From: a virus
Direction: 5' to 3' (one strand)
IMG/VR virus record: IMGVR_UViG_3300021964_009390
Span: 124,001-188,000 of that record
Length of the DNA stretch: 64,000 bases
Of the stretch, positions 21,993-59,303 are shown piece after piece (within the stretch, counting starts at the first letter, position 1; the number at the start of each line of letters is the position of its first letter). The notes beneath the pieces were generated by a model. That model ran no database searches. It was given only the letters and a program-made list of their open reading frames with translations, and was not told where the DNA came from. The position numbers were made by a program, and so were the translations under genes.

Positions 21993-22136
21993 TTATTTTT
22001 CAACTTTAGACTTCAATGTGTATAGTATTTTAACCCCTTTAGGTATCTGTTTTTGAAACCATTTACGTACAGATTCTGATGGTGGTAGGCTCGACACTTT
22101 GATCAACACACTTTTAGGTTGCTCGTTACTTTTCAT
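21993..22136 (-). CDS. Small basic hypothetical protein, 47 residues
   Basis: A short protein beginning MKSNEQPKSVLIKV and ending with a Lys-rich tail. The frame is open back to 22199, but the ATG at 22136 is chosen because it overlaps the upstream protease-like gene by only 11 nt. Not recognised; it could be translated by coupling to that gene. Confidence 0.4.
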   Translation of the reverse strand: MKSNEQPKSVLIKVSSLPPSESVRKWFQKQIPKGVKILYTLKSKVEK

Positions 22137-22503
22137 ATATGTCTCGATGCGCACGTTGAAATTTGCGCATGATGACCCCGGCCAGTGAGTTGGCTTCATT
22201 TTCTATTGGACTACCATCATCACCACACCCTGGTTTCAGACGACCTTGTTCATGTTGTTTAGCATGTACTAGTTCATGTGCTAAGCTTCTCAATATATCA
22301 ACTAGAGCCCGACCACCGCTCATCACTTTTATTTCCCTAGTCATAGGATTGAAACTCCCGGTCGTCATGTCCTGTTCAGGTCTGTCTACAAAACCTATTT
22401 CGCACGGGGTCTGCAGGTTTAAACTATGTTTACAGTACTTGATGAACCTGTCAAGTGTGTCCTTACCTTCATGTAGAAAAACATAGTTTTTAAAACTGTT
22501 CAT
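22126..22503 (-). CDS. HExxH metalloprotease-like late protein
   Basis: A 125-residue protein with LAHELVHAKQHEQ at about residues 74-86, an HExxH zinc motif, followed about 20 residues on by IENEANSLAG, where a glutamate could be the third ligand. This layout resembles small SprT/ImmA-like metallopeptidases. The N-terminus MNSFKNYVFLHEG has the form of a T4 internal-protein leader with an L-x-E site. The frame opens at 22542, but the ATG at 22503 follows a late box and is chosen. The substrate is unknown; a packaged protease is possible. Confidence 0.65.
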   Translation of the reverse strand: MNSFKNYVFLHEGKDTLDRFIKYCKHSLNLQTPCEIGFVDRPEQDMTTGSFNPMTREIKVMSGGRALVDILRSLAHELVHAKQHEQGRLKPGCGDDGSPIENEANSLAGVIMRKFQRAHRDIYEK

Positions 22504-22510
22504 TGTGTGT

Positions 22511-22816
22511 TTATTTATTCTTGTTAGAGTAGAATACTTCAATAGATTGTGTAGAACCTACAAGACTATCATACAACCAGCTGGTCGCGGAGCATGCTAG
22601 ACCCATGAATACATGGGTAATGTAGTCGTTGTTAACAAAATGGCTCATACCAAAACCGGTCCAAAAGCCTACACACATACTACATGACAACAGCTCATTC
22701 AATAATGTATGGCGCGCCTTCAACCAGTCACGCGGTATTTTTAAAATGCTACCATACACAATGACTGCTGTTGCACCAGTCATCGAGACTAGTTGCAACC
22801 AAAATGGTAAATTCAC
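22511..22816 (-). CDS. Small membrane protein with CxxC motif (DUF1360-like)
   Basis: A 101-residue protein with three hydrophobic segments at about 6-26, 44-62 and 66-85. Between the first and second lies LLNELLSCSMCVGFWTGF, the CxxC-GFWxG pattern of DUF1360-like membrane proteins seen in bacteria and phages. The function is unknown; an inner-membrane location is expected. The start is GTG at 22816, overlapping the TGA of the gene upstream (GTGA), so translation is coupled. Confidence 0.65.
   Translation of the reverse strand: MNLPFWLQLVSMTGATAVIVYGSILKIPRDWLKARHTLLNELLSCSMCVGFWTGFGMSHFVNNDYITHVFMGLACSATSWLYDSLVGSTQSIEVFYSNKNK
22512..22519 (-). promoter_or_regulatory. T4-type late promoter box before the protease-like gene
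   Basis: AATAAATA on the minus strand, 8 nt before the ATG at 22503; it overlaps the last codons of the membrane-protein gene. Confidence 0.5.
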
Positions 22817-23001
22817 TTGTCTTTCTGGAGATGTTTTAATGCATCTCCAAGCAGTTCCGCTTGTTCAATTTCTAGCTGGACAGTGTTACCATGATCATCT
22901 GTAATACTCACATGTATATCATCATCCAATACAACTTCCGGACACTTGTCTTTACCGCAACATAGCAGCACTCCACGTTCTGTAATTTTTAGCATACTCA
23001 T
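22813..23001 (-). CDS. Small late hypothetical protein, 62 residues
   Basis: A 62-residue protein starting MSMLKITERGVLLCCGKDKC. A longer frame opens at 23034, but the ATG at 23001 stands 5 nt after an exact TATAAATA, which fixes the start. The sequence has a CCGKDKC cysteine cluster (possible metal site), then acidic and beta-rich text. It leads a unit with the DUF1360-like membrane protein. Not recognised. Confidence 0.6.
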   Translation of the reverse strand: MSMLKITERGVLLCCGKDKCPEVVLDDDIHVSITDDHGNTVQLEIEQAELLGDALKHLQKDK

Positions 23002-23006
23002 GTAAT

Positions 23007-23014
23007 TATTTATA
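23007..23014 (-). promoter_or_regulatory. Perfect T4 late promoter TATAAATA
   Basis: Exact TATAAATA on the minus strand, 5 nt before the ATG at 23001. It overlaps the queE stop codon region at 23010. Confidence 0.75.
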
Positions 23015-23813
23015 CTCCTGTTGTTTGATCCCACGCACTAACATGCAATCTAGTCAATGCCGTATAACCGTATTTTTTACCCATCTCCATACAAAACTGT
23101 GTACGTTCATGATAATCTTCACGTTTGTCTAACCCGGGCATCATCAGCACTCGCTTGGGTTGTATACCGAAAGGTTTGATAAAATCTCTCTCTATTTCTT
23201 CTAAACATGATTCTTCACTTATTACAAACTTGAACCAGTGATTATAGTGCTCCATGATTCTTTCCAATGCGCGTGGTACTATCCGGCGCTTGCTATCCAT
23301 ACCACTGTTAGCTAGTTTTACAGAACAGTTTATTTGATCTAGATGTTCAAATAAATCATCTTCTATATACATGGTACCGTTGGTTTCTATCTCGTTAAAC
23401 AAATATCTACCCTGTGGGCTGTCCTTGATGTCCTGTTCATCATCACCCCATGTAGAATGTTTGTCATAAAACCATTTCAAGAAACCTACGATGGCGCGTT
23501 GGTTTTTGGGTATAGTTGGTTCACCACCAGTCCATATCAAGTTGACTCGACCTTCTTTGATCCAGTCATACACGTTTTGTTCTTTCCACCTATCTACTAG
23601 ATAACTGAAAGGTTTTTCTAGGCCTTTCTTCCACACATACTCTGTGTCACACCACCATGTTGCTTGGCCTGACTTCATCAGGCTACCGTCGACACCTCCG
23701 CACATCAAGTTACATGCTTTGAGTCGTATGAAGTACGCTGGTACACCACTGGTTTGACCTTCACCTTGAACGCTGTAAAAATCTTCTGAAATGTTTAATG
23801 TATCTATTTCCAT
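23010..23813 (-). CDS. queE: 7-carboxy-7-deazaguanine synthase (QueE)
   Basis: A radical SAM enzyme converting CPH4 to 7-carboxy-7-deazaguanine. From the ATG at 23813 the protein has 267 residues. The N-terminus has SEDFYSVQGEGQTSG and PAYFIRLKACNLMCGG, giving C34 and C38, and after an insertion WWCDTEYVW with C55. The canonical CxxxCxWCDT arrangement is therefore split by about 16 residues, as I recall for some phage QueE. The WTGGEPTIP motif near 90-98 is the SAM-binding GGE. It lies 4 bases after queD and shares its early promoter. Confidence 0.9.
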   Translation of the reverse strand: MEIDTLNISEDFYSVQGEGQTSGVPAYFIRLKACNLMCGGVDGSLMKSGQATWWCDTEYVWKKGLEKPFSYLVDRWKEQNVYDWIKEGRVNLIWTGGEPTIPKNQRAIVGFLKWFYDKHSTWGDDEQDIKDSPQGRYLFNEIETNGTMYIEDDLFEHLDQINCSVKLANSGMDSKRRIVPRALERIMEHYNHWFKFVISEESCLEEIERDFIKPFGIQPKRVLMMPGLDKREDYHERTQFCMEMGKKYGYTALTRLHVSAWDQTTGV

Positions 23814-23817
23814 ATAT

Positions 23818-24525
23818 TTAAAATAACCACGTGTTTTTAGTTTTACCACTATATTTTGGATCCACCCATTTACCCACTGTCTTGTTTTGAGCATCTTTCA
23901 ATTTAGGTGGAGGTGTTTTGAATGGTGGCTTGGTAATTTTTTTAGCATTATCATCCTGTTGTTTGATTTCTTGCGCGACCGATTCTTCAGAAGTCTCAAC
24001 AGACTCGCGAGTCTCTTCATGATGTTCTTGTTCTAGTGTCGATAGGTAACTGTCACTAGAGATATATGTATCTGATGTCTTTTCGCTCCCCGGAAATTCT
24101 TGATATACAGCTGAGTTGTCCTGGTGTTCAAACACCTCTACTTTGACACATCTGCACCTGAGCTTGGTTATCACACCTACATAATTGTCTGCTGCTGAAT
24201 GGCACCATTCAGCGAATTTCTCTATACCCACACCATCCATCACGCGCAAGTCACACACACCGGCTTGGTCTAGTTGCTTGAACACGCTTAATTTAGGATC
24301 ATCACTAGATATACAAGTGGTATGATCAAATTGTTGTTTGAGCAGTGCTTTAAATTCTTTAAAATTACCGAAGTCTACAACCCAGTTGTTTTCGTCTAAA
24401 GTTTCTGCCGCAAACCAGAATTTAGCTTTGAGTTGGTAGCCATGTATGAATCTACAATGGCTAGTGGCTCTTGGTTGTCTAAACGCGCAGCTACCTAGTT
24501 CAATAGTTTTTGTACTGTAATGCAT
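23818..24525 (-). CDS. queD: 6-carboxytetrahydropterin synthase (QueD), with a long tail
   Basis: Converts dihydroneopterin triphosphate to 6-carboxy-tetrahydropterin in the preQ0 pathway. The core (about residues 1-140) has SHCRFIHGYQL at 22-32, VVDFGNFKEF near 49-58 and FDHTT near 66-70. The usual zinc pair HGH reads HGY here, so one ligand is changed. Residues about 145-235 form an acidic, Ser/Glu-rich then Lys/Pro-rich tail that ordinary QueD lacks. It heads the queD-queE unit under a sigma-70 promoter at 24532-24560. Confidence 0.82.
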   Translation of the reverse strand: MHYSTKTIELGSCAFRQPRATSHCRFIHGYQLKAKFWFAAETLDENNWVVDFGNFKEFKALLKQQFDHTTCISSDDPKLSVFKQLDQAGVCDLRVMDGVGIEKFAEWCHSAADNYVGVITKLRCRCVKVEVFEHQDNSAVYQEFPGSEKTSDTYISSDSYLSTLEQEHHEETRESVETSEESVAQEIKQQDDNAKKITKPPFKTPPPKLKDAQNKTVGKWVDPKYSGKTKNTWLF

Positions 24526-24531
24526 CTAATA

Positions 24532-24560
24532 ATTATAGATGCCTTTACATGGATATTCAA
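24532..24560 (-). promoter_or_regulatory. Sigma-70-like early promoter before queD-queE
   Basis: Minus strand TTGAAT (24560-24555), 17-nt spacer, TATAAT (24537-24532), 6 nt to the ATG at 24525. The spacing is identical to the folE and gp43 promoters. Confidence 0.7.
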
Positions 24561-24563
24561 GTG

Positions 24564-25622
24564 TTAATTCCCAGTGAAATGTTTCGGATCAAATTTATAT
24601 CCTCTGTTATTGATGTTCTTACCAACATGACCGACATCATGCGCGATCTTGTCCCACATGTCATCTAGAGAGTCAAAACCATAAAAATCTTTAATTTTGT
24701 TTCGCTCAGCAATAGATTTTTCTACCCCGGTGGTGATTAAACGATTGATAAGCTCTTTAGCTTGATGAACATTTTTGAATGAGTCAAATTCGTACCATCT
24801 CCTATTCAAAGCTTGAGATATGTATGATAACCAGATGTATTTTGGGTCGACCATGGTCATGGTTTCTGCTGGTACCAGCTTGTCTCGCTCCGGTGGTATT
24901 CCGGCTTGACCAGGTTGACGAGTTTTATCATTAGGACCACGTTCTAACATATTTAAAAAATATCTATAATCACCACTACCGCTTGATGCTGACGATTGTG
25001 CAGAACTTACATCAATGTCACCGAAGGGTGTGGGTAGTCTTGTTGTATCAGGGTCTGCCAGAATTTCTAGTATATTTTTTGTTTTCTGTTCCGGACGAGC
25101 AGCAATCTCATTTCTCAATTTAGGAAATATTTTATGCGCGTCAATCATAGACTTTAACGCGGACAAACCTTGCTTTTCCGAATCATCAACATCAGACATG
25201 TAGTCTTTAAATGTACCAGGTTCAGACGATTCAGGCTCCTCAGCTGTTTCCGGTTTCTTAGGTGGTTCTGGTTTCTTGACCGGTTCAGGTTTCTTGACCG
25301 GTTTCTCATCTTTTCCACCTAGTATGTCTCGAATCGGGTGATCGTTAGATACATTCACATTAGTACTACTGATTGGTTTTTTAGGTTTGTAGTTGTCTAC
25401 AGTACCGTCTAGAGGTGCCAATTGTACCGGGAGGTTGGGTATAGTTGAATCCGGTCGTCGGCGAGGTTTTTTAGGTTCATCATCTTGCTCATCCTTGAAA
25501 CCACTTGTAAAATCTTTCCCAGCGGTTTTGATACGATCATAAGCTTTACCTAGCAATTTACCAGCATCTTTAGCAAACCCTTCAGTGTAGTTCTCGTATA
25601 TTGCCTGTTGATCACGGTCCAT
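24564..25622 (-). CDS. Late hypothetical protein, Lys/Pro-rich, probable internal head protein
   Basis: A 352-residue protein with MDRDQQAIYENYTEGF at the N-terminus, a helix-forming leader with possible cleavage sites. Residues about 45-140 are a low-complexity region of Lys-Pro-Glu repeats (KKPEPVKKPEPPKKPE). The C-terminal half is mixed with a helical segment near 260-340 (ALNRRWYEFDSF, DDMWDKIAHDVGHVG). No enzyme motif is clear. It starts 2 bases after the upstream gene stops and sits in the internal-protein cluster. Confidence 0.55.
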   Translation of the reverse strand: MDRDQQAIYENYTEGFAKDAGKLLGKAYDRIKTAGKDFTSGFKDEQDDEPKKPRRRPDSTIPNLPVQLAPLDGTVDNYKPKKPISSTNVNVSNDHPIRDILGGKDEKPVKKPEPVKKPEPPKKPETAEEPESSEPGTFKDYMSDVDDSEKQGLSALKSMIDAHKIFPKLRNEIAARPEQKTKNILEILADPDTTRLPTPFGDIDVSSAQSSASSGSGDYRYFLNMLERGPNDKTRQPGQAGIPPERDKLVPAETMTMVDPKYIWLSYISQALNRRWYEFDSFKNVHQAKELINRLITTGVEKSIAERNKIKDFYGFDSLDDMWDKIAHDVGHVGKNINNRGYKFDPKHFTGN

Positions 25623-25624
25623 GC

Positions 25625-26143
25625 TTACAGGTCCAGTGGACTTTTAATATTTCTAGGTGGTGGTGTATCATCATCATCGTCATCATCTAGATCTAGTATA
25701 CTTTTTTTACGTTTCGGTTTACTCTCGGATGGTTCATATTTAAACCTATCATCTTTAGATGGACCATCACCCTGTACATCGTATCCAGGGAATGCACTTT
25801 TGTATGAATTCAATATACCAGGATTGACTCTATCACAAAAATCAGAATTCCGAGTTATATATACTCCTTTTTTCATTTGTCTGAACATCCAAAGCAACTC
25901 CTGTGTGGCACATGGACAGCCATCAAGAGCTCTGTGGATAACCTCTCTCTTGACCACATCATCTTCTGTAACTAGCAGTGGACTGGCTAGAATCTCAGAA
26001 CCCATACGCTCCAGTCTCTCTTGAGAGATGTTCATGTCTGGGTCTTCCGGATTGTTCGTCTCCCCGGGTTGTGAGAAGCGGACTTCATTGACATGTTCAG
26101 CACCTTTTACTAGCTGTTTTATTTTACTAAGTTTATCATTCAT
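25625..26143 (-). CDS. Late hypothetical protein, probable internal head protein
   Basis: A 172-residue protein. A longer frame opens at 26197, but the ATG at 26143 (MNDKLSKIKQLVKGAEH) is chosen because it leaves a clean 10-nt gap after the upstream gene and matches the leader form of neighbouring proteins. The middle contains HRALDGCPCATQELLWMFRQM with a CPC motif; the C-terminus is an Asp run followed by Pro/Lys. Not recognised. Confidence 0.55.
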   Translation of the reverse strand: MNDKLSKIKQLVKGAEHVNEVRFSQPGETNNPEDPDMNISQERLERMGSEILASPLLVTEDDVVKREVIHRALDGCPCATQELLWMFRQMKKGVYITRNSDFCDRVNPGILNSYKSAFPGYDVQGDGPSKDDRFKYEPSESKPKRKKSILDLDDDDDDDTPPPRNIKSPLDL

Positions 26144-26153
26144 GGTGTGTATA

Positions 26154-27809
26154 TTATTTAGTTGAACTGGCTGTAGAACCACTGGTACTACCTGCACCTA
26201 AACTAGGAGCTTGCTTTGCCGGTGATACACTACCTGCACCTAAACTCGGTGCTTGCGGCGACGGGGTGGGAACACCTGGTCCTAGATTTGGAGCTTGTTT
26301 GGCCGGTTTGCCCGGTTTTTTCGAACCACCACCTCCTCCACCTCCAGTCACGGGTGAGGGTTGAGTTGTTACAGGGGGTTTCGGAAGCGGTACTCTGCTA
26401 CCTCCATCACTTCCAACTCTGCTACCACCGGGTTTGCGTCCTGGTATTTCAACTGGTGTTTTTGGAAATTGTTCAGTGTCCGGTTCACCTTCAGGGGTAT
26501 TGGTCGGTGGTGGTGCCGGGTCTGCATCTGGTTCGGATTCTACTTCCGGGTCTGCTTCAGCATATTTTATGACAGCCATGGCCACTTCTTTGACTGATCG
26601 TGTATCCATCAAACCACTCTCTCTAGCTGCCAATCCAATGGCACCTAGACCTAGCATGGATACAGCTGATTTGTCTGGTTCAAGATTTAAAATTTTAGCC
26701 ATTACATTGTCGAATTCATCAGGAAACTCTGGTTCAAAAATTATAGGAGGAAAATAGTCTTTTTGAATTTTTCTGTAGATCTTCCAGCGACTAGTGTTGT
26801 CTCCTGGATCCTTTTTGTTCATTATACCATAAACACCTCCTATTTTGACACGACGTTCAATTTGATCTAACAATCTGTATCGTTCTAATAACGCCTTGAT
26901 CGCTGGATGGTTCATCAGTTTGCCTATAGTCAGTCTAAATCCAGGGTCACGCTTCTCATCATCTGTTTGAGCGCCAAACCCGTGTTCACCTTCATGTGAT
27001 TCTGGACTACCTTCTTCTGGTGGTTGCTCTCGCTTCATGCTACCGGGCTTGTATTTCGCTCGTTTTTCACGTTTTTTGTCACGTGACTGTCTCATTTTAC
27101 TCTTCCGGTTTTTTCTGGCTTCCTCTAGATTCTCTTCCGGTTTCAATTTGAAATCGTCTGGGTTGTTAGGGTCTTTATCACCTATGTTGGGTATGATAGT
27201 TTTGACTCGTAATGTTATTGGTCTGGAGTATGCATTGGAGCTGTTGGCTGAGTTTGCAGTACCATACAATACCAACAGTTGATTGTTGGGTATGTCTAGA
27301 TGGTCAAATTCAAAGTAATACGGATCCGCGTTGGCCATGCCAGTGTTAATTTTACCAAACTCACGTATTTTACCTGTCTCGTCCTCGTACTGACCTTGCC
27401 TGACGGGTAACACAGGTGCACCTTGTTTGTATATTTTCTTGAGTGATTTAAAGGTGTTCATACCACGTTGAACGCTTTTCCAGAAACCTTTTTGTTTTGC
27501 AGCGCCATGCACTCCAGTTCCTAGTTGGTCATGATGAGCATCCGGGTCTTTCAATCGGTCAGCAGTACCTGGGTTTTGTCTGTCCATCACCTCATCACTG
27601 GTGGTAGTCAATATGTTACCTTCCGCATCCTGAGGTGCGCGGATTTTTTGATCTCCAGTCTCACCACTAGGTTCTAATTGACCCTTCAGTTTGCTATCTT
27701 CTCTGTCGCTAGATATTTTTTGTTTTGCGTCATTAACTTCATCCTCGTCATAGCCGTATTTGTCTATACCCTCGACAAGATTTTTAATTTTCTTGAAATG
27801 TTTGTTCAT
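26154..27809 (-). CDS. Large late protein with Gly/Pro repeat tail, probable internal head protein
   Basis: A 551-residue protein. The N-terminus MNKHFKKIKNLVEGIDKYG fits a capsid-targeting leader with an L-V-E/G site. Residues 60-130 are polar; 215-260 are very basic (RKNRKSKMRQSRDKKREKR), suitable for DNA contact. Residues 275-410 look folded, with an LLERYRLLDQIERRVKIGGVY segment. From about 420 on it is Pro/Gly-rich with a Gly run and three copies of a QAPxLGxG unit near 505-540. It overlaps the upstream gene by 4 nt. No family recognised. Confidence 0.6.
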   Translation of the reverse strand: MNKHFKKIKNLVEGIDKYGYDEDEVNDAKQKISSDREDSKLKGQLEPSGETGDQKIRAPQDAEGNILTTTSDEVMDRQNPGTADRLKDPDAHHDQLGTGVHGAAKQKGFWKSVQRGMNTFKSLKKIYKQGAPVLPVRQGQYEDETGKIREFGKINTGMANADPYYFEFDHLDIPNNQLLVLYGTANSANSSNAYSRPITLRVKTIIPNIGDKDPNNPDDFKLKPEENLEEARKNRKSKMRQSRDKKREKRAKYKPGSMKREQPPEEGSPESHEGEHGFGAQTDDEKRDPGFRLTIGKLMNHPAIKALLERYRLLDQIERRVKIGGVYGIMNKKDPGDNTSRWKIYRKIQKDYFPPIIFEPEFPDEFDNVMAKILNLEPDKSAVSMLGLGAIGLAARESGLMDTRSVKEVAMAVIKYAEADPEVESEPDADPAPPPTNTPEGEPDTEQFPKTPVEIPGRKPGGSRVGSDGGSRVPLPKPPVTTQPSPVTGGGGGGGSKKPGKPAKQAPNLGPGVPTPSPQAPSLGAGSVSPAKQAPSLGAGSTSGSTASSTK

Positions 27810-28219
27810 GACATTAAAAACAGTTTACTGATTTTCTCAAATTCTTCTCGCTCCACACCCCGTTCCTTGAGAAACGCTTCCAAGTGTTGAATGTCTCCAG
27901 CGTTGATTATGTTGTAGTGTGACGCTTCATCACAATCGTCTCTTTTTACATCACTCAAATAGTTCATCACGAATTGCTTGAACATCTCGAATGTACCTCC
28001 GTGAGGTTCCACTTGATCCGGAGACAGTTCGATAGTGTTTTGGTCCATGTCTGGTGCCATCACCATCACACGTAACATTCCTTCGTTCTCTTCTATAATA
28101 TAACCTTCATACGGTAGAGAGTCAGACGGAGATTGATGATCACGTGGATCAGTTTTCATACGAACACGCTTGAGTTGTGTGTTGTTCAACGCGTTCTCTA
28201 CAACATGGTGAAATTTCAT
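27806..28219 (-). CDS. Late hypothetical protein, 137 residues
   Basis: An acidic 137-residue protein beginning MKFHHVVENALNN, again an M-K-x-x leader form. The middle reads EGYIIEENEGMLRVMVMAPD and then DQNTIELSPDQVEPHG, which looks like a small beta domain; the C-terminus is helical. The ATG stands 6 nt after a CATAAATA late box. It is the first gene of the late unit that runs to 24564 and overlaps the next gene by 4 nt. Confidence 0.6.
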   Translation of the reverse strand: MKFHHVVENALNNTQLKRVRMKTDPRDHQSPSDSLPYEGYIIEENEGMLRVMVMAPDMDQNTIELSPDQVEPHGGTFEMFKQFVMNYLSDVKRDDCDEASHYNIINAGDIQHLEAFLKERGVEREEFEKISKLFLMS

Positions 28220-28225
28220 TACAAT

Positions 28226-28233
28226 TATTTATG
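28226..28233 (-). promoter_or_regulatory. T4-type late promoter box (CATAAATA)
   Basis: CATAAATA on the minus strand, 6 nt before the ATG at 28219. It faces away from the folE early promoter in the same 57-bp spacer. Confidence 0.65.
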
Positions 28234-28241
28234 TTTAATAC

Positions 28242-28270
28242 TTGAATATAACTAGGCTTGTGTATATAAT
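28242..28270 (+). promoter_or_regulatory. Sigma-70-like early promoter before folE
   Basis: TTGAAT (28242-28247), 17-nt spacer, TATAAT (28265-28270), then 6 nt to the ATG at 28277. No ribosome binding site fits between. Confidence 0.72.
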
Positions 28271-28276
28271 CATTGT

Positions 28277-28921
28277 ATGGATTACGTAAAATTACAATAC
28301 GCTAACGGTAATCATCCTAGAACACCAGAAGAGCGAGAGAAAATTATAGATAATGCAGCAAAAGCATATGAAGCATACATGGATGCATTATGTTTTGATT
28401 GGAGATCAGACCCTAACAGCGCTGACACACCCAGACGTGTGGCAAAAGCTTTTGTAAATGATCTTGCGGCTGGTTGTTATACTGAACCCCCTAACATCAC
28501 TACATTTGATAATGTAGATCAATACGATGGTTTAGTATTTCAGGGTAATATAAAGACTAACTCGTTTTGTTCACATCATCATTTACCTTTTATAGGACAG
28601 ACGCATGTAGCTTACATACCAGGTAAAGATGGTAAGGTGATCGGGTTGAGTAAATTGAACAGAATAGTCGAGTGGTTCTCTCGTAGACCACAAGTTCAAG
28701 AAAATTTAACCATGCAGGTACATAAGTATATCAATCAAGTATGCGAAGGTAATAACGGTGTTGCGGTGTTAGTTGAAGCTAACCATACATGTGCTGGACT
28801 GAGAGGTATCAAGCATGATAGTACTATGAAAACAGCTCGTATGAGTGGGGCATTTTTAGATAAAAAGGATATTAATACACGACAAGAATTTTACGACTTT
28901 GTAAGAGATTTAAAACGATGA
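28277..28921 (+). CDS. folE: GTP cyclohydrolase I (FolE)
   Basis: Converts GTP to 7,8-dihydroneopterin triphosphate, the entry step to preQ0 and to folate. This 214-residue protein has NSFCSHHHLPFIGQTHVAYIP near 95-115 (zinc ligands C98 and H101), a KVIGLSKLNRIVEWFSRRPQ segment near 120-139 and ANHTCAGLRGIKH near 168-180 with the third ligand C172. Length and motifs fit bacterial FolE. With queD, queE and queC in the window it most likely feeds 7-deazaguanine synthesis. It has its own early promoter within the late minus-strand cluster. Confidence 0.94.
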   Translation: MDYVKLQYANGNHPRTPEEREKIIDNAAKAYEAYMDALCFDWRSDPNSADTPRRVAKAFVNDLAAGCYTEPPNITTFDNVDQYDGLVFQGNIKTNSFCSHHHLPFIGQTHVAYIPGKDGKVIGLSKLNRIVEWFSRRPQVQENLTMQVHKYINQVCEGNNGVAVLVEANHTCAGLRGIKHDSTMKTARMSGAFLDKKDINTRQEFYDFVRDLKR

Positions 28922-29073
28922 AAACTATATTTGATAAAGTTGATACAAAATATTTAGATTGTACATCAGGTACATGTGAGCATGTAGCTCATAATTTTAA
29001 CGGTATACTGTTAGTCACTATTGCATTAGCAATCGTGACTGTAAAAGTATATCAATATTTAAACACCAGATAA
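28918..29073 (+). CDS. Tiny single-span membrane protein, 51 residues
   Basis: A frame too short for usual cut-offs. The ATG overlaps the folE stop (ATGA), and 51 codons run to TAA at 29071-29073. It begins MKTIFDKVDTKYLDCTSGT, has two cysteines near residues 15 and 20, and one hydrophobic span at about 29-48 (GILLVTIALAIVTV), then a short basic end. Coupled translation with folE and the coherent membrane segment support it. Its end overlaps the convergent nucleotidyltransferase gene by 15 bp. Confidence 0.55.
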   Translation: MKTIFDKVDTKYLDCTSGTCEHVAHNFNGILLVTIALAIVTVKVYQYLNTR

Positions 29074-29640
29074 TATACGTTTCACTTGTTCCGGATCTAC
29101 ATGTTCTGGTATATCTGAGACAAACACACTTGGATCGTCAATATTGTTACGTATATTAGATGCGCTGTAAGGTGTTCCGTCAGGCTTGTTTAATATATCA
29201 ACAGCTGTAAGTTGTGGGTCTAATACCTCCACGTTCAATTGTTTAGAATCTGCCCATTTCTTAGCACCAGACCATCTCTTCCAGTCATTGTCTTTCTTAC
29301 TCGCACCAAGTATCACACGTTTACCGTTCAAAGTTTCGAGTGCTAGATACGCAGCTCCTACCGGACTAGGTTGAGGGCTGATCTCTACAGTCACGTTGGG
29401 TAAGTTTGAAACATATAATTCAAATATTTTTTTAGACATTTCTGGAGTTATCACCTGGCCAGTCTTGGTCTTTCTCACACTCTTCTCACTAGGAGCAGAT
29501 ATCAACACCACAACATCATCAGCCATGCCAGAGTAGATGCTCACCATTTGATAATGACCTTTATGCGGTGGTTTGAAGCTTCCAGGTACTAAAGCAATGT
29601 CAGCGCCGGTAGTAACATAATCTTTAAAGCTAGGTATCAT
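29059..29640 (-). CDS. HxGH nucleotidyltransferase (cytidylyltransferase-like), probably packaged
   Basis: A 193-residue protein of the nucleotidylyltransferase superfamily. ALVPGSFKPPHKGHYQMV near residues 16-33 holds the HxGH motif (H26, H29), and TPYSASNIRNN near 156-166 corresponds to the ISSTxxR motif. Family members adenylylate or cytidylylate phosphates (NMN, pantetheine phosphate, glycerol phosphate). The substrate is not readable. The first residues, MIPSFKDYVTTG, precede the core strand and look like the internal-protein leader. The ATG overlaps the HAD gene stop by one base. Confidence 0.8.
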   Translation of the reverse strand: MIPSFKDYVTTGADIALVPGSFKPPHKGHYQMVSIYSGMADDVVVLISAPSEKSVRKTKTGQVITPEMSKKIFELYVSNLPNVTVEISPQPSPVGAAYLALETLNGKRVILGASKKDNDWKRWSGAKKWADSKQLNVEVLDPQLTAVDILNKPDGTPYSASNIRNNIDDPSVFVSDIPEHVDPEQVKRILSGV

Positions 29641-30011
29641 TACATGTCTTTATGTAGTGACCAATCAACTGATCCTAGACCTTCGTTACGTATCAAATCA
29701 ATACCGGTCGCACGTACTCCTGGTTTACCTGGGTCCATATCATTTATCAAGAATCTAGGACCTCTCTCGATCTCCATGATCAGTCTATCATACACAATAT
29801 TATTCTCCGCTAGCTCTTTGACTGTATGATCTCTTAAATATTCCGGTCTGGCTGTAGTTAATATTATCATATGACCTAGATCTTTCCAATAATTCATTTT
29901 ATCGACAACTCCAGACAGGACTTTTGGTTTAGATGTCATGTACGTTTCAAACTTACGATACTCAAATAGAGTACCATCAATATCACAAAATATAGTGTTT
30001 TTCTTTTCCAT
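29640..30011 (-). CDS. HAD-family phosphatase-like protein
   Basis: A 123-residue HAD-fold protein. Motif I is FCDIDGTLFEY at about residues 8-18, motif II IILTTARPEYLRD near 49-61 and motif IV FLINDMDPGKPG near 87-98. It lacks a large cap domain, like polynucleotide 3'-phosphatase or small-molecule HADs. It lies between a KxDG nucleotidyltransferase-like gene and an HxGH nucleotidyltransferase, so it may act in nucleotide or nucleic-acid end repair. It has no capsid-leader-like N-terminus. Confidence 0.75.
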   Translation of the reverse strand: MEKKNTIFCDIDGTLFEYRKFETYMTSKPKVLSGVVDKMNYWKDLGHMIILTTARPEYLRDHTVKELAENNIVYDRLIMEIERGPRFLINDMDPGKPGVRATGIDLIRNEGLGSVDWSLHKDM

Positions 30012-30014
30012 AAA

Positions 30015-31283
30015 TTACCCAAATTTTTTATTAGGATCAAAATTGGCTTTACTAAACTCTAGTCTATCGACTAATTTCACTGCGTTACCTATATGATCAA
30101 CTGCGACAAAACCTTCCGGTTTAGTGACTTTGAAACTACCGTCTTCTTGCTCTATGAAGCTGTCCATTGCTCTTAAATTTGACAATTTGTTTACAAAGAT
30201 ATTTTTAATCTGCATCAATTTTAAATATAAATCGTACATCATCTGTATATTGGATGTGTTTTGCTCTAGAAAATGAACACCACGTTCCATAGCCTCACGC
30301 TTGCGTGTTTGTCCAGCTTCTGTTTTGAGTTTGTCTATTGCTGCAGTGGTTTTGTTGATATATCGCTCCATGAAACTGTTTGCAAATTTAACAGAATCTG
30401 CTTCGAATTCACCTTGAGTTTTTATCGCGCTGTTTATATGAGCTTTGAGTTCAACTTTTAAATCTGATATATGTTCTGTGTCATTTAAAAATTCAAACAC
30501 ATGTTTTATTTGCCAGAAATGATTCCTACATTCACGTATCTTTTCTGTTATGCTGGCTGACTCTTCTGGTGTCAAGTGTATCTGCCCACTCACATCTTTG
30601 AATGTTGCATCATCAAACCAAACGCTGCTATGCTCTGTGAGTCTGTTGGCTTTGAAACCAAATGTAGCTCCCATGTCATGTATTGTAGGACCACCGGTGT
30701 ACATGGTGTGAAACACAATACCCATGTCTGATTTCAATATTCGTTGGGCGAGCTCCGTGTCAGTTGGTACCGCATAAGAGATTGTGTTAGGTTTGAACAC
30801 TAGATGTTCCTTACCATCGATGGTGGCGCGCCTGATAGAATCTTTTGTATACAGCATGTCTCCTTGTAACACATAACCATCTATGTCGAGATGTTTCAAA
30901 CATTTAAACGCTGTTTTGAGTTTTTTTCTCAACATGCTTTTGTCTTGTTTCGAGTCACCACGCTTCACATCACCATGATTACGATTTATATCCGTGACAC
31001 GTTTGTTCATTTTGGGTATTTTTCCGAATACCGCTTTTGTACCTACGAAAAATCGTCCATCTGCTGGGTCAGTACCACAAAAAATTGCTGGTGCTCCATC
31101 CCATTTTGTTGTTATATCCACCGGATTGGTAGCATGACCTTTGAGTGTATCTAGTAGACCGGTGAACATAGAGAACGCTTGTTCTACACCGTTTTCACCT
31201 AGATTTATCAGTTCATCCTCGATGTGCTCTAGATGAGTGTTTTTACTCTCTACATGTAATACATACTCTTTGAATGTGAACAT
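30015..31283 (-). CDS. DUF6267-like protein with ligase-type KWDG motif, probably packaged
   Basis: A 422-residue protein resembling the DUF6267 family of T4-like marine phages. VDITTKWDGAPAIF at about 55-68 gives K60-W-D-G, the adenylated lysine motif of ATP-dependent ligases and capping enzymes. Downstream are GYVLQGDMLY near 136-145 and EHLVFKPNTISY near 159-170, compatible with motifs IIIa and IV. The C-terminal 180 residues are helical. The leader is MFTFKEYVLHVESK. A late promoter lies 5 nt before the ATG. Covalent nucleotidyl transfer is inferred; the substrate is unknown. Confidence 0.72.
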   Translation of the reverse strand: MFTFKEYVLHVESKNTHLEHIEDELINLGENGVEQAFSMFTGLLDTLKGHATNPVDITTKWDGAPAIFCGTDPADGRFFVGTKAVFGKIPKMNKRVTDINRNHGDVKRGDSKQDKSMLRKKLKTAFKCLKHLDIDGYVLQGDMLYTKDSIRRATIDGKEHLVFKPNTISYAVPTDTELAQRILKSDMGIVFHTMYTGGPTIHDMGATFGFKANRLTEHSSVWFDDATFKDVSGQIHLTPEESASITEKIRECRNHFWQIKHVFEFLNDTEHISDLKVELKAHINSAIKTQGEFEADSVKFANSFMERYINKTTAAIDKLKTEAGQTRKREAMERGVHFLEQNTSNIQMMYDLYLKLMQIKNIFVNKLSNLRAMDSFIEQEDGSFKVTKPEGFVAVDHIGNAVKLVDRLEFSKANFDPNKKFG

Positions 31284-31288
31284 AACAT

Positions 31289-31296
31289 TATTTATG
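31289..31296 (-). promoter_or_regulatory. T4-type late promoter box (CATAAATA)
   Basis: CATAAATA on the minus strand, 5 nt before the ATG at 31283, overlapping the 3' end of the gene upstream. Confidence 0.65.
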
Positions 31297-32809
31297 CTCT
31301 CACACCAATACCAATACCTTTGTTACGTGAATCAACACCGGCATTCTGCACCACAATGTCTGGATTGTTCACAAGTTGCCTGTATACAGACAGCAATTGT
31401 TGACCGGCATCGTTGCTAGGGTCAAATTTGATGTTACTCGCGTTCATTGTAGTTGGGTTCAATACTAGTATTCTATCAAATTTATCAACTGATTGATAGG
31501 AAGTCGCTTGCAAAGCAGCTTGCAAGGTTTGTAATGTGTGTTGACCTAGTGATTTCCCGCGACTCACTTGCTTGCTTATGTTGGTGAGTTGATCTTTAAA
31601 CTCGACTTTGCGAAATATTTTCTCGAGCGCGGAAATTAATGAAGCTACAGAACCCGGGTCCATTTCCTCTGTTCTCATCTCTACAAATATCTCGGCTAGC
31701 TCCCGAGGTGTCATGCCCCAGTCATGATTGAACATGTACTGCGCGCTGTCTTGCCAGTTGTAATCCATACTGTCTGTGCTCAATCCGCTCAGCCTGTCTA
31801 GTCGATTGAATATATAGCTCATGTTTTTTACAAACGTCATTTTAGGTTGTAATGGGACCCCTTCTCCAAGTTTGTCATACCCTATCTGTAAATTGTTTTT
31901 TATTATGTCAATATTGATAGTACGTTTTGCATCTTGTAAGGATTCTAGATTTTTCAACAGCTGCTCGATTGGTCCGTTGAGTTCTAGAGTGTCTTCAGTC
32001 GGATTTTTTAGAAATTTGTTCTTGAACGTGTTTACATTTTTCAATGTCTCTTTCGCTTTAATTGACAGTTCTTTACGTATGATTGGTGTTTCTGCTTGTG
32101 AGAAGTGCTGACCGGTACCTCGGTTCACCAGCGTGTTGATATACTTGCTACCACCATCTCTACCGATGCCTTTGGTGTAATCGCTCTTACCTAGGCGACC
32201 ACCGGCTCCTTTTATCTCCAGTTCCATATCACCAATTCTTAGATCACCTACAGCACCTTTGACTGCGTTAGTGAACATGGTTAGACTAACTTCACCCGGA
32301 CCTACACTCACGGTGTTTATTTTGGGTTGTACTTTGAAGGTGAGTTCCTTGAACAATTGTTTGAAATTTTTAGTCAACTTGTGTGCCAGCGGGTCCACAG
32401 CATCATACAGGCTCCACACACCGGGTTTGTTCACATGTGACTCTAGTTTACCTAAAGAGCTTCCAGGGTTCTTTTTCTTCTCCACAAGCTTGTTCAACAC
32501 TTGTACATCAATGTCATATCCTAGAAATATCTCCAGTACCAACGTGTCGATCTCTGGTATCTCTTCCCATTGACCAAGTCGGAGCAACTGTTTCACTAGA
32601 TTTTCAACCCCACCATCAGCTTTGCTCAACACCAAACGTTTCAATTGCTGATAATAATCATCAGGTATGGCTCCTAGTTGCTCTTGAGTACCACCTTGAG
32701 GTACTCCGATTATTTCCACACTCTCGTTGACAGGTGTACGTGATTCTGCATACACATCTTTCAACGACTTGTATTTAAAAGGTTTCTTCGATGGTGGTAG
32801 ATAGTTCAT
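31292..32809 (-). CDS. Late protein with a PD-(D/E)xK-like nuclease signature
   Basis: A 505-residue protein. SVGPGEVSLTMF (E173), AVGDLRIG (D189) and DMELEIKGAGGRLG (E198, K200) fit the alpha-helix Glu, Asp and ExK order of PD-(D/E)xK nucleases. The flanking GPGE and KGxGGRLG segments are ones I associate with a conserved marine phage protein. The remaining chain is mostly helical. The N-terminal 30 residues are Lys/Pro-rich and then reach an NES site. No late box is certain; the gene overlaps its upstream neighbour by 4 nt. Nuclease activity is inferred. Confidence 0.65.
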   Translation of the reverse strand: MNYLPPSKKPFKYKSLKDVYAESRTPVNESVEIIGVPQGGTQEQLGAIPDDYYQQLKRLVLSKADGGVENLVKQLLRLGQWEEIPEIDTLVLEIFLGYDIDVQVLNKLVEKKKNPGSSLGKLESHVNKPGVWSLYDAVDPLAHKLTKNFKQLFKELTFKVQPKINTVSVGPGEVSLTMFTNAVKGAVGDLRIGDMELEIKGAGGRLGKSDYTKGIGRDGGSKYINTLVNRGTGQHFSQAETPIIRKELSIKAKETLKNVNTFKNKFLKNPTEDTLELNGPIEQLLKNLESLQDAKRTINIDIIKNNLQIGYDKLGEGVPLQPKMTFVKNMSYIFNRLDRLSGLSTDSMDYNWQDSAQYMFNHDWGMTPRELAEIFVEMRTEEMDPGSVASLISALEKIFRKVEFKDQLTNISKQVSRGKSLGQHTLQTLQAALQATSYQSVDKFDRILVLNPTTMNASNIKFDPSNDAGQQLLSVYRQLVNNPDIVVQNAGVDSRNKGIGIGVRA

Positions 32810-33282
32810 GTGTTTATATTAACATCACTATATTTTTTCATCAACTGTATAAATTTATTCAACATGCCTTTGCGGTTGTTCTCGTTGATTGAATTCATGG
32901 CATCATGCACACTCTCGATACGATCCTCGTTATCACCACGGGTCTGTTGATTGTTGATGATGCTCAAGATGTCCTGTTTGACTTGCTCTGCATTTTCTTG
33001 ATTTATCTCCGGTTGGTCTATCTTGCTCAAGGTGCTCAAGTCAGAATCTTCGATATTTATGACCAGAGCTTTGAGCAACAAGCGTACCAGTGTAACTTCT
33101 GCTGCTGGTGACAGATTGGCTGGTGGGCTAGCGTCTGGTTGTTCCCCAGCGCCTGGCGCTGGACTAGGAGGTGGTGCTCCCGGGGCTGGTGCTGGTGCAG
33201 CAGCTTCCGGTGGTGGTGCGCCTGCTTCTGGTTGCTCACTAATTCCAACTAGTTCGTTGATCAACGAGTTGAAATTTTTCAT
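32806..33282 (-). CDS. Pro/Ala-rich late protein, probable prohead core or internal protein
   Basis: A 158-residue protein starting MKNFNSLINELVGISEQ, a leader with I-N-E and I-S-E sites. Residues 18-60 are Pro/Ala/Gly repeats; the rest is helical and acidic. This shape, leader, low-complexity and helix, is like small prohead core or internal proteins of T4-like phages. The ATG at 33282 overlaps the TGA of the upstream gene. Confidence 0.6.
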   Translation of the reverse strand: MKNFNSLINELVGISEQPEAGAPPPEAAAPAPAPGAPPPSPAPGAGEQPDASPPANLSPAAEVTLVRLLLKALVINIEDSDLSTLSKIDQPEINQENAEQVKQDILSIINNQQTRGDNEDRIESVHDAMNSINENNRKGMLNKFIQLMKKYSDVNINT

Positions 33283-33551
33283 CAAGCTCCCATTTGTTTG
33301 GCTTTGTCTCTGCTGCTTTGAGCAGTAGATTGTGCTTTTTGAGTACGAGCACCGGCAAGTTCTTGACGTGCAGACTGAGCGTCAGTTTCCGCGTCATGAG
33401 CGGTGTCCTCAGCTTTGTCAGTTTGTTGTTTAGCTGCTTGGATCTCTTTCTCTTGATCAGCATTATCTTTCTCAGTCTCGTCTTCTTCCGCCTCGAGGGC
33501 GATGCCAAGTCGGTTGTATTGATCTTCTATGATTTGTTCGAAACGTTTCAT
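33282..33551 (-). CDS. Short coiled-coil late protein, probable prohead core or internal protein
   Basis: An 89-residue, very acidic and Gln/Ala-rich protein predicted to be one long helix. MKRFEQIIEDQYNRLG is the leader, with an I-I-E site, and residues 20-85 have few hydrophobics but regular Ala/Gln/Glu spacing. This resembles T4 gp67/gp68-type core proteins in size and charge, though no direct similarity is claimed. A late box lies 5 nt before the ATG. An overlapping frame on the same strand is a composition artefact. Confidence 0.6.
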   Translation of the reverse strand: MKRFEQIIEDQYNRLGIALEAEEDETEKDNADQEKEIQAAKQQTDKAEDTAHDAETDAQSARQELAGARTQKAQSTAQSSRDKAKQMGA

Positions 33552-33556
33552 GATAT

Positions 33557-33564
33557 TATTTATG
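33557..33564 (-). promoter_or_regulatory. T4-type late promoter box (CATAAATA)
   Basis: CATAAATA on the minus strand, 5 nt before the ATG at 33551, heading the coiled-coil and Pro/Ala-rich genes. Confidence 0.65.
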
Positions 33565-33582
33565 TTATGATGTTGTATTTAT

Positions 33583-34137
33583 CTAGATTAACACTTGTTT
33601 GAGTCGTTGATTGTCGAAGAAATCTCTTGACAACCCGGTCAACCCATGTTTTTCAACATGCTTCTTCATTTTATATAAATTGTATGTTTGATCGTTATGT
33701 ATCTCGCTCAACAACTCGATTGTTTCACCGTCTCTACTGTTCACAAGATTTTTAAACTGGTCAAAATCTACACACGACACGTGATATTTGATACCGATTG
33801 CTGATTTCATGAACTTGAACAGACTGATCATAAATTCACTCAACGGTTGTTTAGTGTAATATTGACTCAATTCAATTTGATTTAATTTAGATCTATCGAT
33901 GTACATGACTGGTCGTTCATGAGATGCTTTAAAAGATAGAATAAAATCACACACACTACTGAATATATGATGCGATGTAGCTACATGAACATCGTTTTGA
34001 AATTTATCCGCGTCGATCGGACTAATACCGTGATCGTACAGCTCATCGACGATGTCAATCGAACGATCCGTACAGAAGTAACTAGTATAATCGATTATAT
34101 TTATATTAAACCGGTCAACGACGGTATTTCTCAGCAT
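33583..34137 (-). CDS. Hypothetical protein, 184 residues
   Basis: Not recognised. A long frame opens at 34305, but the ATG at 34137 (MLRNTVVDRFNINI) avoids a 158-nt overlap with the upstream nuclease-like gene and is chosen. The protein is soluble with alternating helical and strand segments (ERPVMYIDRSKL near 90-101, GIKYHVSCVDFDQF near 128-141) and a basic helical end. No catalytic signature is clear. Confidence 0.55.
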   Translation of the reverse strand: MLRNTVVDRFNINIIDYTSYFCTDRSIDIVDELYDHGISPIDADKFQNDVHVATSHHIFSSVCDFILSFKASHERPVMYIDRSKLNQIELSQYYTKQPLSEFMISLFKFMKSAIGIKYHVSCVDFDQFKNLVNSRDGETIELLSEIHNDQTYNLYKMKKHVEKHGLTGLSRDFFDNQRLKQVLI

Positions 34138-34147
34138 GGCTTTTATA

Positions 34148-34648
34148 TTATAACGGATCTTTGCACAGTTGCAATAGTTTTTTTGTATTATTTTTAAAAA
34201 AACTGTGGAACTCACATATAATGTACTTCTCTTTGTATATAAAAAACGAGTCTGGTATGGTGTATTCCTCGAAAAACTCTTGTGAAAACACGACACACGT
34301 ACCACAGTAACTGATTTTGAAAGTCAAAAACCATATTTTGTTTGTGTCTTGTGCTTGTTCAATCCACGAATTGAGTTGCTTGTTGTCCGTGAACAGTTGA
34401 AACCATGAGAATTTCTTGTATGATTTACATTCTATCTTCATACCGAACAGCTCCTCTGGAACTATCAAATCACCCTCGGTGAGTAACTGTTGGGTTTTAG
34501 ATAAACGGTTTAGACGTGACGAATTCTTACCCCCAACAAAAGCACCACTATTAGGTACTCTTTCAAAATTTAATTTAAAATAATCGGAAAGATACTTAGC
34601 AACTTCACGTTCACCTCGATTACCTTTTCCTTTACTTTTACTGGGCAT
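34148..34648 (-). CDS. Holliday-junction-resolvase-like / PD-(D/E)xK endonuclease
   Basis: A 166-residue protein with a start like archaeal-type resolvases. KGNRGEREVAKYLSDYF at about 8-24 supplies the first Glu. RVPNSGAFVGG follows near 31-41. LLTEGDLIVPEELFGMKIECKSYKKF near 55-80 holds GD and ExK (ECK). This is a clear PD-(D/E)xK core. Such enzymes cut branched or mismatched DNA and may replace T4 gp49. A late-like TGTAAATA box stands 5 nt before the ATG. Confidence 0.75.
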   Translation of the reverse strand: MPSKSKGKGNRGEREVAKYLSDYFKLNFERVPNSGAFVGGKNSSRLNRLSKTQQLLTEGDLIVPEELFGMKIECKSYKKFSWFQLFTDNKQLNSWIEQAQDTNKIWFLTFKISYCGTCVVFSQEFFEEYTIPDSFFIYKEKYIICEFHSFFKNNTKKLLQLCKDPL

Positions 34649-34653
34649 TCATT

Positions 34654-34661
34654 TATTTACA
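34654..34661 (-). promoter_or_regulatory. Possible late promoter box (TGTAAATA)
   Basis: TGTAAATA on the minus strand matches 7 of 8 late positions if the second base is free, and lies 5 nt before the ATG at 34648. It overlaps the stop region of the small gene upstream. Confidence 0.45.
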
Positions 34662-34881
34662 GTACATTTTTAAGATTTCTACGCAATATGGTCAATTGCT
34701 CCCTTTTAACCTTACGTTTACTACGTTTTTTACGCTTAGTTACAGGTTTAAAACCAATAAAAGTAGGTATTCTCGCATCACCATCAGCATAACCACCACC
34801 AACATCACCAAATACACCCCCTGCACCGGCTACATTATCTTCATTGATAGTTTTAACGAAATAACTTTTAAATAGATTCAT
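34657..34881 (-). CDS. Small basic protein with capsid-targeting-like leader
   Basis: A 74-residue protein. MNLFKSYFVKTINED then NVAGAGG suggests a leader with cleavage after I-N-E; the mature part would start DNVAGAG. A Gly-rich middle leads to a strongly basic end (KRKKRSKRKVKREQ near 49-62), suited to bind packaged DNA. A CATAAATA is found about 30 nt upstream of the ATG, farther than usual. This is the clearest candidate for a DNA-binding internal head protein. Confidence 0.6.
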   Translation of the reverse strand: MNLFKSYFVKTINEDNVAGAGGVFGDVGGGYADGDARIPTFIGFKPVTKRKKRSKRKVKREQLTILRRNLKNVL

Positions 34882-44656: not shown

Positions 44657-45713
44657 AAAATCAGACATTAGCGCTGATGCTCTCAAAGCATTAGATAGTA
44701 TAGATAAAATGAACCCGTTAGCCGGGTTTTTAACTGAGAGTACGTTGAGTAATGTCAATGACTGGCACGATACCGGCTGTCTTGTGCTAAACAGCATAAT
44801 TAGTGGTAGTTTGTACAAAGGTGTACCAAAAGGTAGAGTTACTGGTTTCGCCGGTCCGAGTATGGCAGGTAAGACATACATAATCAATAAGATATTAGCT
44901 GGAGCTCAACGCGAAGGTATGATTCCAGTGATTTTTGACACAGAAGCTGCAGTAGATGAAAATAGTGTACGTGGAGTTGGTTTAGACCCGGAAAAAGTTA
45001 AATATGTCCCAGTGCAAACTGTAGAAGAGACCCGTAACCAAATTGTAAAATTTTTAGATCATATCATTGAAAATAAACAACAAGGTAAATTTATCATAAG
45101 TATTGATAGTTTAGGTAACCTCGCTAGTCAAAAAGAGATGGAAGACATCACCAAGGACAAAACCGCGGTAGATATGGGCACACGAGCCAAAGGGCTCAAG
45201 AGCATGATGAGGACTCTCACATTCAAAGCAGCAGAAGCTGACACTACCATATTGTTCAGTAATCATACTTATGATGATCCGGCTGCTATGTTTCCATCTC
45301 TAGTAAAAAACCAAGCCGGTGGTAAAGGACCAGTGTATCTCGCCAGTGTGTTGGTGCAATTGGCCAAGAAAGATGAGCGTCATGACAAAAATAACGAGTC
45401 TGATCAAATGATCGCAGAGGCTAAAACATATAGTGGTACCACGTTACGTGCTCTGACTGTCAAAAACCGGTTTGTACCACCGTTTCTTGAGGCGGAAATG
45501 TATTTAAACTTTAAAACTGGGTTAGATAAATACTCCGGACTGTTAAACATTGCAGTAAATCATGGTGCAATTGTACAAACCGGTAGTACATACCAATTAC
45601 CTGATGGTACCAAGCTAGGTTATTACAAGCAGTGGAGAGATAATGACGAAATATGGGACAAGGTTCTTCCCGTCATTGAAGAAAAACTAAAAGAAGATTA
45701 TCAGTACAATTAG
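44649..45713 (+). CDS. uvsX: UvsX RecA-like recombinase
   Basis: The strand-exchange recombinase of T4-like phages, 354 residues. It has a CLVLNSIISGSLYKGVPKGRV segment near 40-60, Walker A GPSMAGKTYIINK near 66-78, IPVIFDTEAAVD near 92-103 and Walker B FIISIDSLGNL near 150-160. The DMGTRAKGLKSMMRTL segment lies near 176-191. A LPDGTKLGYYKQW segment near 320-332 closes the family pattern. It works with UvsY and gp32. A hairpin with a T-run lies inside the gene at 44712-44731. Confidence 0.93.
   Translation: MGKKSDISADALKALDSIDKMNPLAGFLTESTLSNVNDWHDTGCLVLNSIISGSLYKGVPKGRVTGFAGPSMAGKTYIINKILAGAQREGMIPVIFDTEAAVDENSVRGVGLDPEKVKYVPVQTVEETRNQIVKFLDHIIENKQQGKFIISIDSLGNLASQKEMEDITKDKTAVDMGTRAKGLKSMMRTLTFKAAEADTTILFSNHTYDDPAAMFPSLVKNQAGGKGPVYLASVLVQLAKKDERHDKNNESDQMIAEAKTYSGTTLRALTVKNRFVPPFLEAEMYLNFKTGLDKYSGLLNIAVNHGAIVQTGSTYQLPDGTKLGYYKQWRDNDEIWDKVLPVIEEKLKEDYQYN
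44712..44731 (+). other. Terminator-like hairpin inside the uvsX coding region
   Basis: AACCCG (44712-44717) and CGGGTT (44723-44728) pair around a TTAGC loop, and five T follow from 44727. It sits at codons about 22-28 of uvsX. The form is that of a weak intrinsic terminator, but coding constraint on the Asn-Pro-Leu-Ala-Gly-Phe residues could produce it by chance. Confidence 0.3.
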
Positions 45714-58891: not shown

Positions 58892-59303
58892 AAATTAAAT
58901 AGCTTTTGAGACTCTCTGATAAGCTTCTCAAATCTTGAGCGATTCTACCAATTTTCTTAGTTTCACTCCGGGCAATATCGTCAAATATGGTGTCACATGG
59001 AGCATTGTTTATTTGAGAGTTGAGAGAACTCTCACCTAATCCGTTCAAATAATCTATAAATTCTTCAATCTTAACAACCCATCCTTCGATTTGACCAGCG
59101 TATTCAGCGTTTTGTTGTTTTTGCAACTCCTCCGCAGGGTTACCTCCAGGACTTGCCATCGGCGCGCCTTCAGGTGCCGGCTCTACATCTAACATCGATG
59201 GGTCCGTACCAGGGTCCATTTGATTTTGTGCTGCATCTGCATCAGTCAATTCTTCCTGTTCTGTAACTAATGTTGTAAAAAATCGGTCAGTAAATGTTTT
59301 CAT
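58881..59303 (-). CDS. Late protein with capsid-targeting-like leader
   Basis: A 140-residue acidic protein. MKTFTDRFFTTLVTEQEEL resembles T4 internal-protein leaders (MKTYQEF...). Residues 20-75 are Asp/Pro/Gly-rich, and 80-140 form two helices (EGWVVKIEEFIDYLNGLG, IGRIAQDLRSLSESLKS). It looks like a prohead core or internal protein. An exact TATAAATA lies 9 nt before the ATG. Not matched to a named family. Confidence 0.6.
   Translation of the reverse strand: MKTFTDRFFTTLVTEQEELTDADAAQNQMDPGTDPSMLDVEPAPEGAPMASPGGNPAEELQKQQNAEYAGQIEGWVVKIEEFIDYLNGLGESSLNSQINNAPCDTIFDDIARSETKKIGRIAQDLRSLSESLKSYLISND

Follow-up and report, generated by a model that had tools for sequence, protein, structure and literature searches.

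A 64,000-nucleotide stretch of viral DNA (hereafter the window; positions 124001-188000 of IMG/VR record IMGVR_UViG_3300021964_009390, which totals 222,461 bp) raises the question of why otherwise unrelated phage proteins should begin with similar short leaders. An earlier note, made from the sequence alone, had attributed to the late proteins of 22126-34881, and to a few farther off, a single leader like that of the T4 internal proteins, cut by the prohead protease gp21. About 20 otherwise unrelated proteins of the phage do start with a leader, of either type A or type B, and these leaders are most probably propeptides of the kind known in T4 as capsid-targeting sequences (CTSs), because they occur beyond chance, are modular on unrelated proteins, accompany gp21, gp22 and gp23, are associated with late promoters and recur on virion proteins of other phages. 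Coordinates below refer to the window unless the record is named, and all leader genes located in the window are on the minus strand.

The 314 genes of the whole record were called by a simple program based on codon usage, so that all start codons are predictions. N-termini (residues 2-17) were compared all-against-all over the 222-kb record after removal of pairs with homologous mature parts; 29 pairs scored 32 or more, compared with one to five pairs in shuffled or internal segments. Part of the excess consists of sulfotransferase and nucleotide-binding protein starts that slipped past the homology filter, and the remaining pairs split into two leader classes, so that the departure from chance was borne out and a single family for all the N-termini originally listed had to be rejected. 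Type A has the form MxxFKxY[VILF] or, more fully, MxxFKxY[VIL]..E, and type B in the phage's own genes has the form M..D...[LI][FWY]E[SN][YF]. In the whole-genome motif search for which the earlier note had called, the fixed pattern for the type-A core was matched by nine genes where 0.5-0.9 would be expected, and that for type B by six genes, or seven with one corrected start, where 0.006 would be expected. The seven type-B members are genes 71, 80, 90, 92, 186, 239 (24564-25622) and 263 (45710-47101). Both types sit on mutually unrelated proteins. The record also contains numerous sulfotransferase-like genes with near-identical starts (M.[NS]HKHKFIFIHIP.TGG) that probably arose by duplication.

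The N-termini originally listed were found where the earlier note had placed them, apart from two start-codon problems: the first gene begins at an internal ATG (22503) instead of the TTG (22542) of the open reading frame list, and MKFDTLFETYF needs a doubtful GTG start at 62358. They include true type-A members, one type-B member (MNRDNHLIFE, 47101) and three at chance level; MNKHFKKIKNLVEG, MKTFTDRFF and MKFDTLFETYF do not match the core A pattern. The type-B gene starting MDRDQQAIYENY (25622), within the interval first described, had been overlooked.

The reference leader of T4 reads MKTYQEFI(A/N)E↓A, the arrow marking the cut. In the T4 internal protein IPIII, entry into the core is directed by the first ten residues; experimental mapping assigned targeting to positions 4 and 7 and cutting to positions 8 and 10 (PMC9026906). 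The gp21 protease, which was predicted to lie outside the window, was identified at record positions 2317-2988 (PF03420, E 1.9e-32), adjoined by genes for a gp22-type scaffold and for gp23 (PF07068, E 5e-88); therefore, the virus is T4-like. Its nearest cultured gp23 relatives, in Synechococcus phages, are 33-34% identical. Among the phage's own proteins of at least 100 aa, gp22 is the densest in [LI]xE[ASGN] sites, of which it has 10, at roughly 14 times the mean density, and therefore the specificity of gp21 appears to be T4-like. The product of type-B gene 186 (G000:C1:101373-102239), which ranks second in this density, may perhaps be a second scaffold-like core protein; that of 58881-59303 ranks third. 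Within residues 5-30, 15 of 20 leader genes have [LIV]xE, as do 98 of 286 others, but the former figure involves some circularity, the site being built into the type-B pattern. The fair comparison, type A alone, gives 8 of 13 genes against the same 98 of 286 (P=0.046).

One leader gene copies part of the capsid protein. The phage's own gp23 contains LNE↓ANVAGG at the cleavage position of T4-type capsid proteins (the cut is placed by analogy). The 74-aa product of 34657-34881 begins with the type-A leader MNLFKSYFVKTINE↓D and continues with a copy of the gp23 arm and a basic tail, in the layout MNLFKSYFVKTINE↓DNVAGAGGVFGDVGGGYADGDARIP plus tail, with the arm copy reading NVAGAGGVFG...YADGDARIP. 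Of all proteins of the phage, gp23 gives it the best local alignment, located just past the predicted cut (score 62, next 42), a score reached in none of 2000 shuffles. A relative in contig L246 reads MRTFKQFVYNE↓DNVAGAGGVFG...YAPGDTRIP. S-CREM2 gp160 and S-SCSM1 gp97, both virion proteins, contain GFTG..A.EGP.AGYDP, which copies the gp23 arm of S-CREM2, GFTGAAAPGGPNAGFDP.

The description of the tagged proteins as late is supported by the sequence TAAATA, which lies within 30 nt upstream of 12 of 20 leader genes and 59 of 294 other genes (P=2e-4). Across the whole record its distance to the start codon has a sharp mode at exactly 5 nt (32 genes, e.g. 30015-31283 and 33282-33551), a placement that fits a T4-type late promoter. 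Transcripts are then predicted to begin on the start codon or beside it, which suggests that the late mRNAs are leaderless or nearly so. This promoter placement and enrichment, together with the single spacing that the type-B pattern keeps across many contigs, might be taken to mean that the shared N-termini are a by-product of late expression, reflecting the context of start codon and translation initiation after near-leaderless mRNAs and not a protein signal. Such an origin is most improbable: the residues of type B are encoded by varying synonymous codons, conservation extends to residues 10-12, and many structural genes have the promoter motif without any leader.

The best comparative case for a type-A propeptide is 30015-31283, which has the leader MFTFKEYVLHVE↓S... 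and matches DUF6267 (E 1e-101). At least 591 relatives are present in IMG/VR, and N-termini were resolved for 68 of them (63 distinct). The strict T4 pattern fits 38 of the 63 distinct leaders, with the consensus F-x-[QE]-[YF]-L-T-E↓[AS], and the leaders end exactly where the conserved domain (KN.HLEH) begins. Leader and domain are separable, as three of the 68 resolved N-termini are leaderless; the Melnitz-3 orthologue starts MINFSKYITED, while that of S-SZBM1 starts at the domain itself, MAKNTHLEH. In an AlphaFold model of the DUF6267 protein (predicted local distance difference test score 81), the leader is disordered. The close relative L143 (81% identical) retains recognisable leaders on the neighbours of the DUF6267 gene as well, among them the cytidylyltransferase leader, which lacks a cleavage site. 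Two motifs of the DUF6267 domain itself, KWDGAP and EGFVA, are invariant and resemble those of nucleotidyltransferases and ligases. Identification of the domain as a polynucleotide ligase from the KxDG and EGFVA motifs was not sustained by a convincing match of the AlphaFold model in the PDB, and stays a lead.

Are proteins with such leaders found in virions? Table 3 of PMC10665884 gives 52 virion proteins of S-CREM2. The strict T4 pattern is matched by four of the 218 S-CREM2 coding sequences, and all four are in this list (P=0.003): gp6, an S-adenosylmethionine (SAM) hydrolase; gp14, a kinase; gp136; and gp154, a cytidylyltransferase. The published proteomes likewise include a cytidylyltransferase/nicotinamide mononucleotide adenylyltransferase (NMNAT) of S-SZBM1 that starts MRFRQFIIEA and an NMNAT of S-SCSM1 that starts MKSFLQFLKEA. 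The leaderless DUF6267 homologues S-CREM2 gp87 and S-SZBM1 gp141 are absent from the virion lists. Two of the three cyanophage papers (PMC10665884, PMC9146016, PMC9602691) allow that the enzymes may be carry-over from lysis. Two further virion proteins in these sources deserve mention. In S-CREM2 gp12, annotated as Cas9, LRFASFMAE↓A occupies residues 17-26, which suggests either an internal tag or an annotation that sets the start too far upstream. The 69-aa S-SCSM1 gp93 (record 91626-91835 of that phage) has a CTS-like stretch, KRTFKEFLEYIE, at its end and not at its start, and this may represent a C-terminal form of the tag.

Since the published virion proteomics is silent on place within the particle, the leaders might send proteins elsewhere, to the tail, baseplate, initiation complex or membrane, and not to the head interior. 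This is quite unlikely in view of the position-by-position fit to the T4 CTS, the head-protease sites, the presence of gp21 in the same genomes and the copy of the gp23 arm.

Several observations weigh against reading the leaders as T4-kind propeptides. Only two genes of this phage match the strict T4 pattern. The leader of the cytidylyltransferase (29059-29640) has no [LI]xE site, either here or in L143. Tagged proteins show no excess of gp21-like sites past the leader, and the idea of multiple gp21 sites along the cargo was therefore rejected. A looser A pattern failed as a predictor of virion proteins, since in S-CREM2 it did not tell them apart from the rest (6 of 17, P=0.19); S-SZBM1 gp191 and gp192 have textbook leaders and were undetected in the virion, both being small; and only one of three strict matches in the S-SCSM1 genome is a virion protein. 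The virion support comes, moreover, from type-A leaders of other T4-like phages. On balance, the proposal of a T4-type propeptide cut by gp21 finds good support in the comparison (gp21, gp22 and gp23 are present, leader positions are kept in orthologues and relatives have tagged virion proteins), with the reservation that some of the members first named are chance-like. We infer from these relatives that the tagged proteins of this phage would be packaged too.

Type B was followed into other viruses by scanning IMG/VR with a DNA pattern composed of TAAATA, a spacer and a type-B start, which matched at least 120 stretches; the statements on consensus, residues and families that follow refer to the matches listed. 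The consensus is M..D..LIFEAY. Conservation of D4, I8 and E10 is not independent evidence because the search pattern fixed them, but residue 9 is F in 65 of 70 and residue 11 is A in 56 of 70 though the pattern admitted other residues there, and the strong preference for Y at position 12 and the variation among synonymous codons also count as independent evidence. Asp at or near position 4 recurs in the phage's seven own type-B genes, which were found without the pattern. Where T4 has an aromatic residue at position 4, type B has this Asp, yet it aligns without gaps in register with the T4 processing site, as I8-x-E10↓A11. The leaders occur on 32 non-homologous families of 60-460 aa (the seven own genes included), with up to four type-B genes per genome by the DNA pattern; a reversed control pattern found none. 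Of ten long type-B contigs, eight carry gp21 and the other two are possibly fragments. A second [LIV]xE follows at residues 14-32 in 18 of 26 families where 7.5 would be expected, with no excess in the control residues 41-59, which also speaks for processing of type B by gp21. Type-A leaders co-occur in type-B contigs; in L084, for instance, a cytidylyltransferase-like protein starts with one (MKTFKQFLLEATGTSIGFFPGAFKPPHKGH). The type-B pattern has no match in Melnitz-3, S-CREM2 or S-SCSM1, and no relatives in cultured phages were found for the three type-B families looked up.

The simplest account of these alignments is that type B is a variant CTS propeptide. Alternatively, type A might be the true CTS and type B something else, such as the start of a separate scaffold-like class that is cut by gp21, discarded and never delivered. 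Type-B proteins are mostly of low complexity and without an enzyme match; many have their second site at residues 17-26; and gene 186 is the runner-up of the proteome in site density. This division of roles is nonetheless unlikely, though less so than the other alternatives, as type B equals the T4 CTS in length and processing register, is attached to many unrelated proteins of widely varying size and often shares contigs with type A.

If both types are propeptides, the tagged proteins would bind the gp22 scaffold core of the assembling prohead late in infection through their first ten or so residues, gp21 would cut after hydrophobic-x-Glu to free the cargo inside the head, and the cargo would be delivered into the next host. 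Tag A would be equivalent to the T4 reference leader, and tag B would be M..D..[LI][FWY]E↓[SAN][YF]. We infer core binding, cleavage and delivery in this phage by extension from T4. A broader proposal, offered tentatively and with somewhat less than even confidence, is that two head-loading signals act side by side, one aromatic and the other (D..LIFEAY) binding a different core site, and together with gp23-arm copies load a large, exchangeable cargo for the next host that can be read from sequence. Virion proteomics of marine T4-like phages repeatedly shows unexplained enzymes (NMNAT/cytidylyltransferase, SAM hydrolase, kinase) that are possibly contaminants. A shared loading tag, if true, would decide that question and predict packaged proteins from sequence, and it may show which proteins a virus brings into its next host; type B, if true, would be a second loading signal, so far undescribed.

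The remaining leader genes of the window vary in how well they fit. By pattern, type-A leaders are assigned to 22126-22503 (MNSFKNYVFLHE↓G..., 125 aa, no Pfam or PDB match, TAAATA upstream), which contains HELVHAKQ, an HExxH metallopeptidase-like motif; to the cytidylyltransferase/NMNAT-like enzyme of 29059-29640 (MIPSFKDYV...); to 32806-33282 (MKNFNSLINE↓L..., 158 aa, Pro/Ala-rich); and to 33282-33551 (MKRFEQIIE↓D..., 89 aa). Type-B leaders belong to 24564-25622 (MDRDQQAIYE↓NYTEG..., 352 aa; by N-terminus comparison and pattern) and to 45710-47101 (MNRDNHLIFE↓SF...RRIFAE↓G, 463 aa), for which a protein search of viral_contigs found no relatives and the DNA pattern scan gave one, with the same leader, in L073. 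N-terminus comparison also paired 25625-26143 (MNDKLSKIKQLVKG...) with its neighbour, weakly and with a site that lacks E, and gave 26154-27809 (MNKHFKKIKNLVE↓G..., 551 aa) a weak A-like leader outside the core pattern. The leader of 27806-28219 (MKFHHVVE↓NAL...) is weak, and a relative has MVKFNNILEQAL. A longer leader on 31292-32809 (...FKYKSLKDVYAE↓S...), assigned by eye, is kept in L143 as KYKSLVDIYTES. Outside the core A pattern lies 58881-59303 (MKTFTDRFFTTLVTE↓Q..., 140 aa), and for 62005-62358 ((M)KFDTLFETYF...) the gene caller favoured an ATG downstream of the doubtful GTG start.

Among the leader genes, 34148-34648 encodes a putative phage PDDEXK endonuclease (PF24608) that has no leader itself. 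The PTPS/QueD-like, GTP cyclohydrolase I and QueC genes at 23818-24525, 28277-28921 and 47139-47849 likely constitute a 7-deazaguanine pathway, perhaps serving DNA modification, and a candidate QueE-like gene without a Pfam match is located at 23010-23894. A PADLOC search for defence and counter-defence functions gave no match.

That T4-like phages pack various proteins by means of CTSs has already been suggested in a review (PMC9026906). No description of cyanophage leaders or of type B was found in open papers, the coverage of which excludes subscription journals, so that, within the reach of this check, the type-B class, the copies of the gp23 arm and the connection of leaders with unexplained virion enzymes are new. 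The leaders resemble the CTSs of T4 IPI, IPII and IPIII (PMC9026906) in being N-terminal and about ten residues long, preceding unrelated mature proteins and accompanying gp21 and gp22. The hydrophobic-x-Glu site is shared in part: among type-A leaders it is clear in the DUF6267 relatives and lacking in 29059-29640. Type A matches the aromatic or hydrophobic positions 4 and 7, and in the best cases 8 and 10 too; type B matches 8, 10 and the length, but differs in Asp at position 4 and in LIFEAY for the aromatic pair. Far more genes are tagged here than in T4, enzyme-like ones included, and they are known from sequence. Compared with gp23 (PF07068), the 74-aa tagged protein repeats the arm that follows the NE↓ cut, but it is just an arm copy with a basic tail and without the capsid fold. 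Cytidylyltransferase/NMNAT, SAM hydrolase and APH-like kinase were detected by mass spectrometry in cyanophage virions (PMC10665884, PMC9146016, PMC9602691), and those of S-CREM2, S-SZBM1 and S-SCSM1 named above have type-A leaders, whereas the accessible text of those papers is silent on a leader, and the cytidylyltransferase of the window is only remotely related to these enzymes. The head ejection proteins of phiKZ and SPN3US (PMC10052503, PMC7411985) offer a parallel in that many proteins are packaged and an S77-like protease cuts after Glu; those phages, however, are giant and their head-protease system is a distant one, whereas the phage described here has gp21, gp22 and gp23 of the T4 type.

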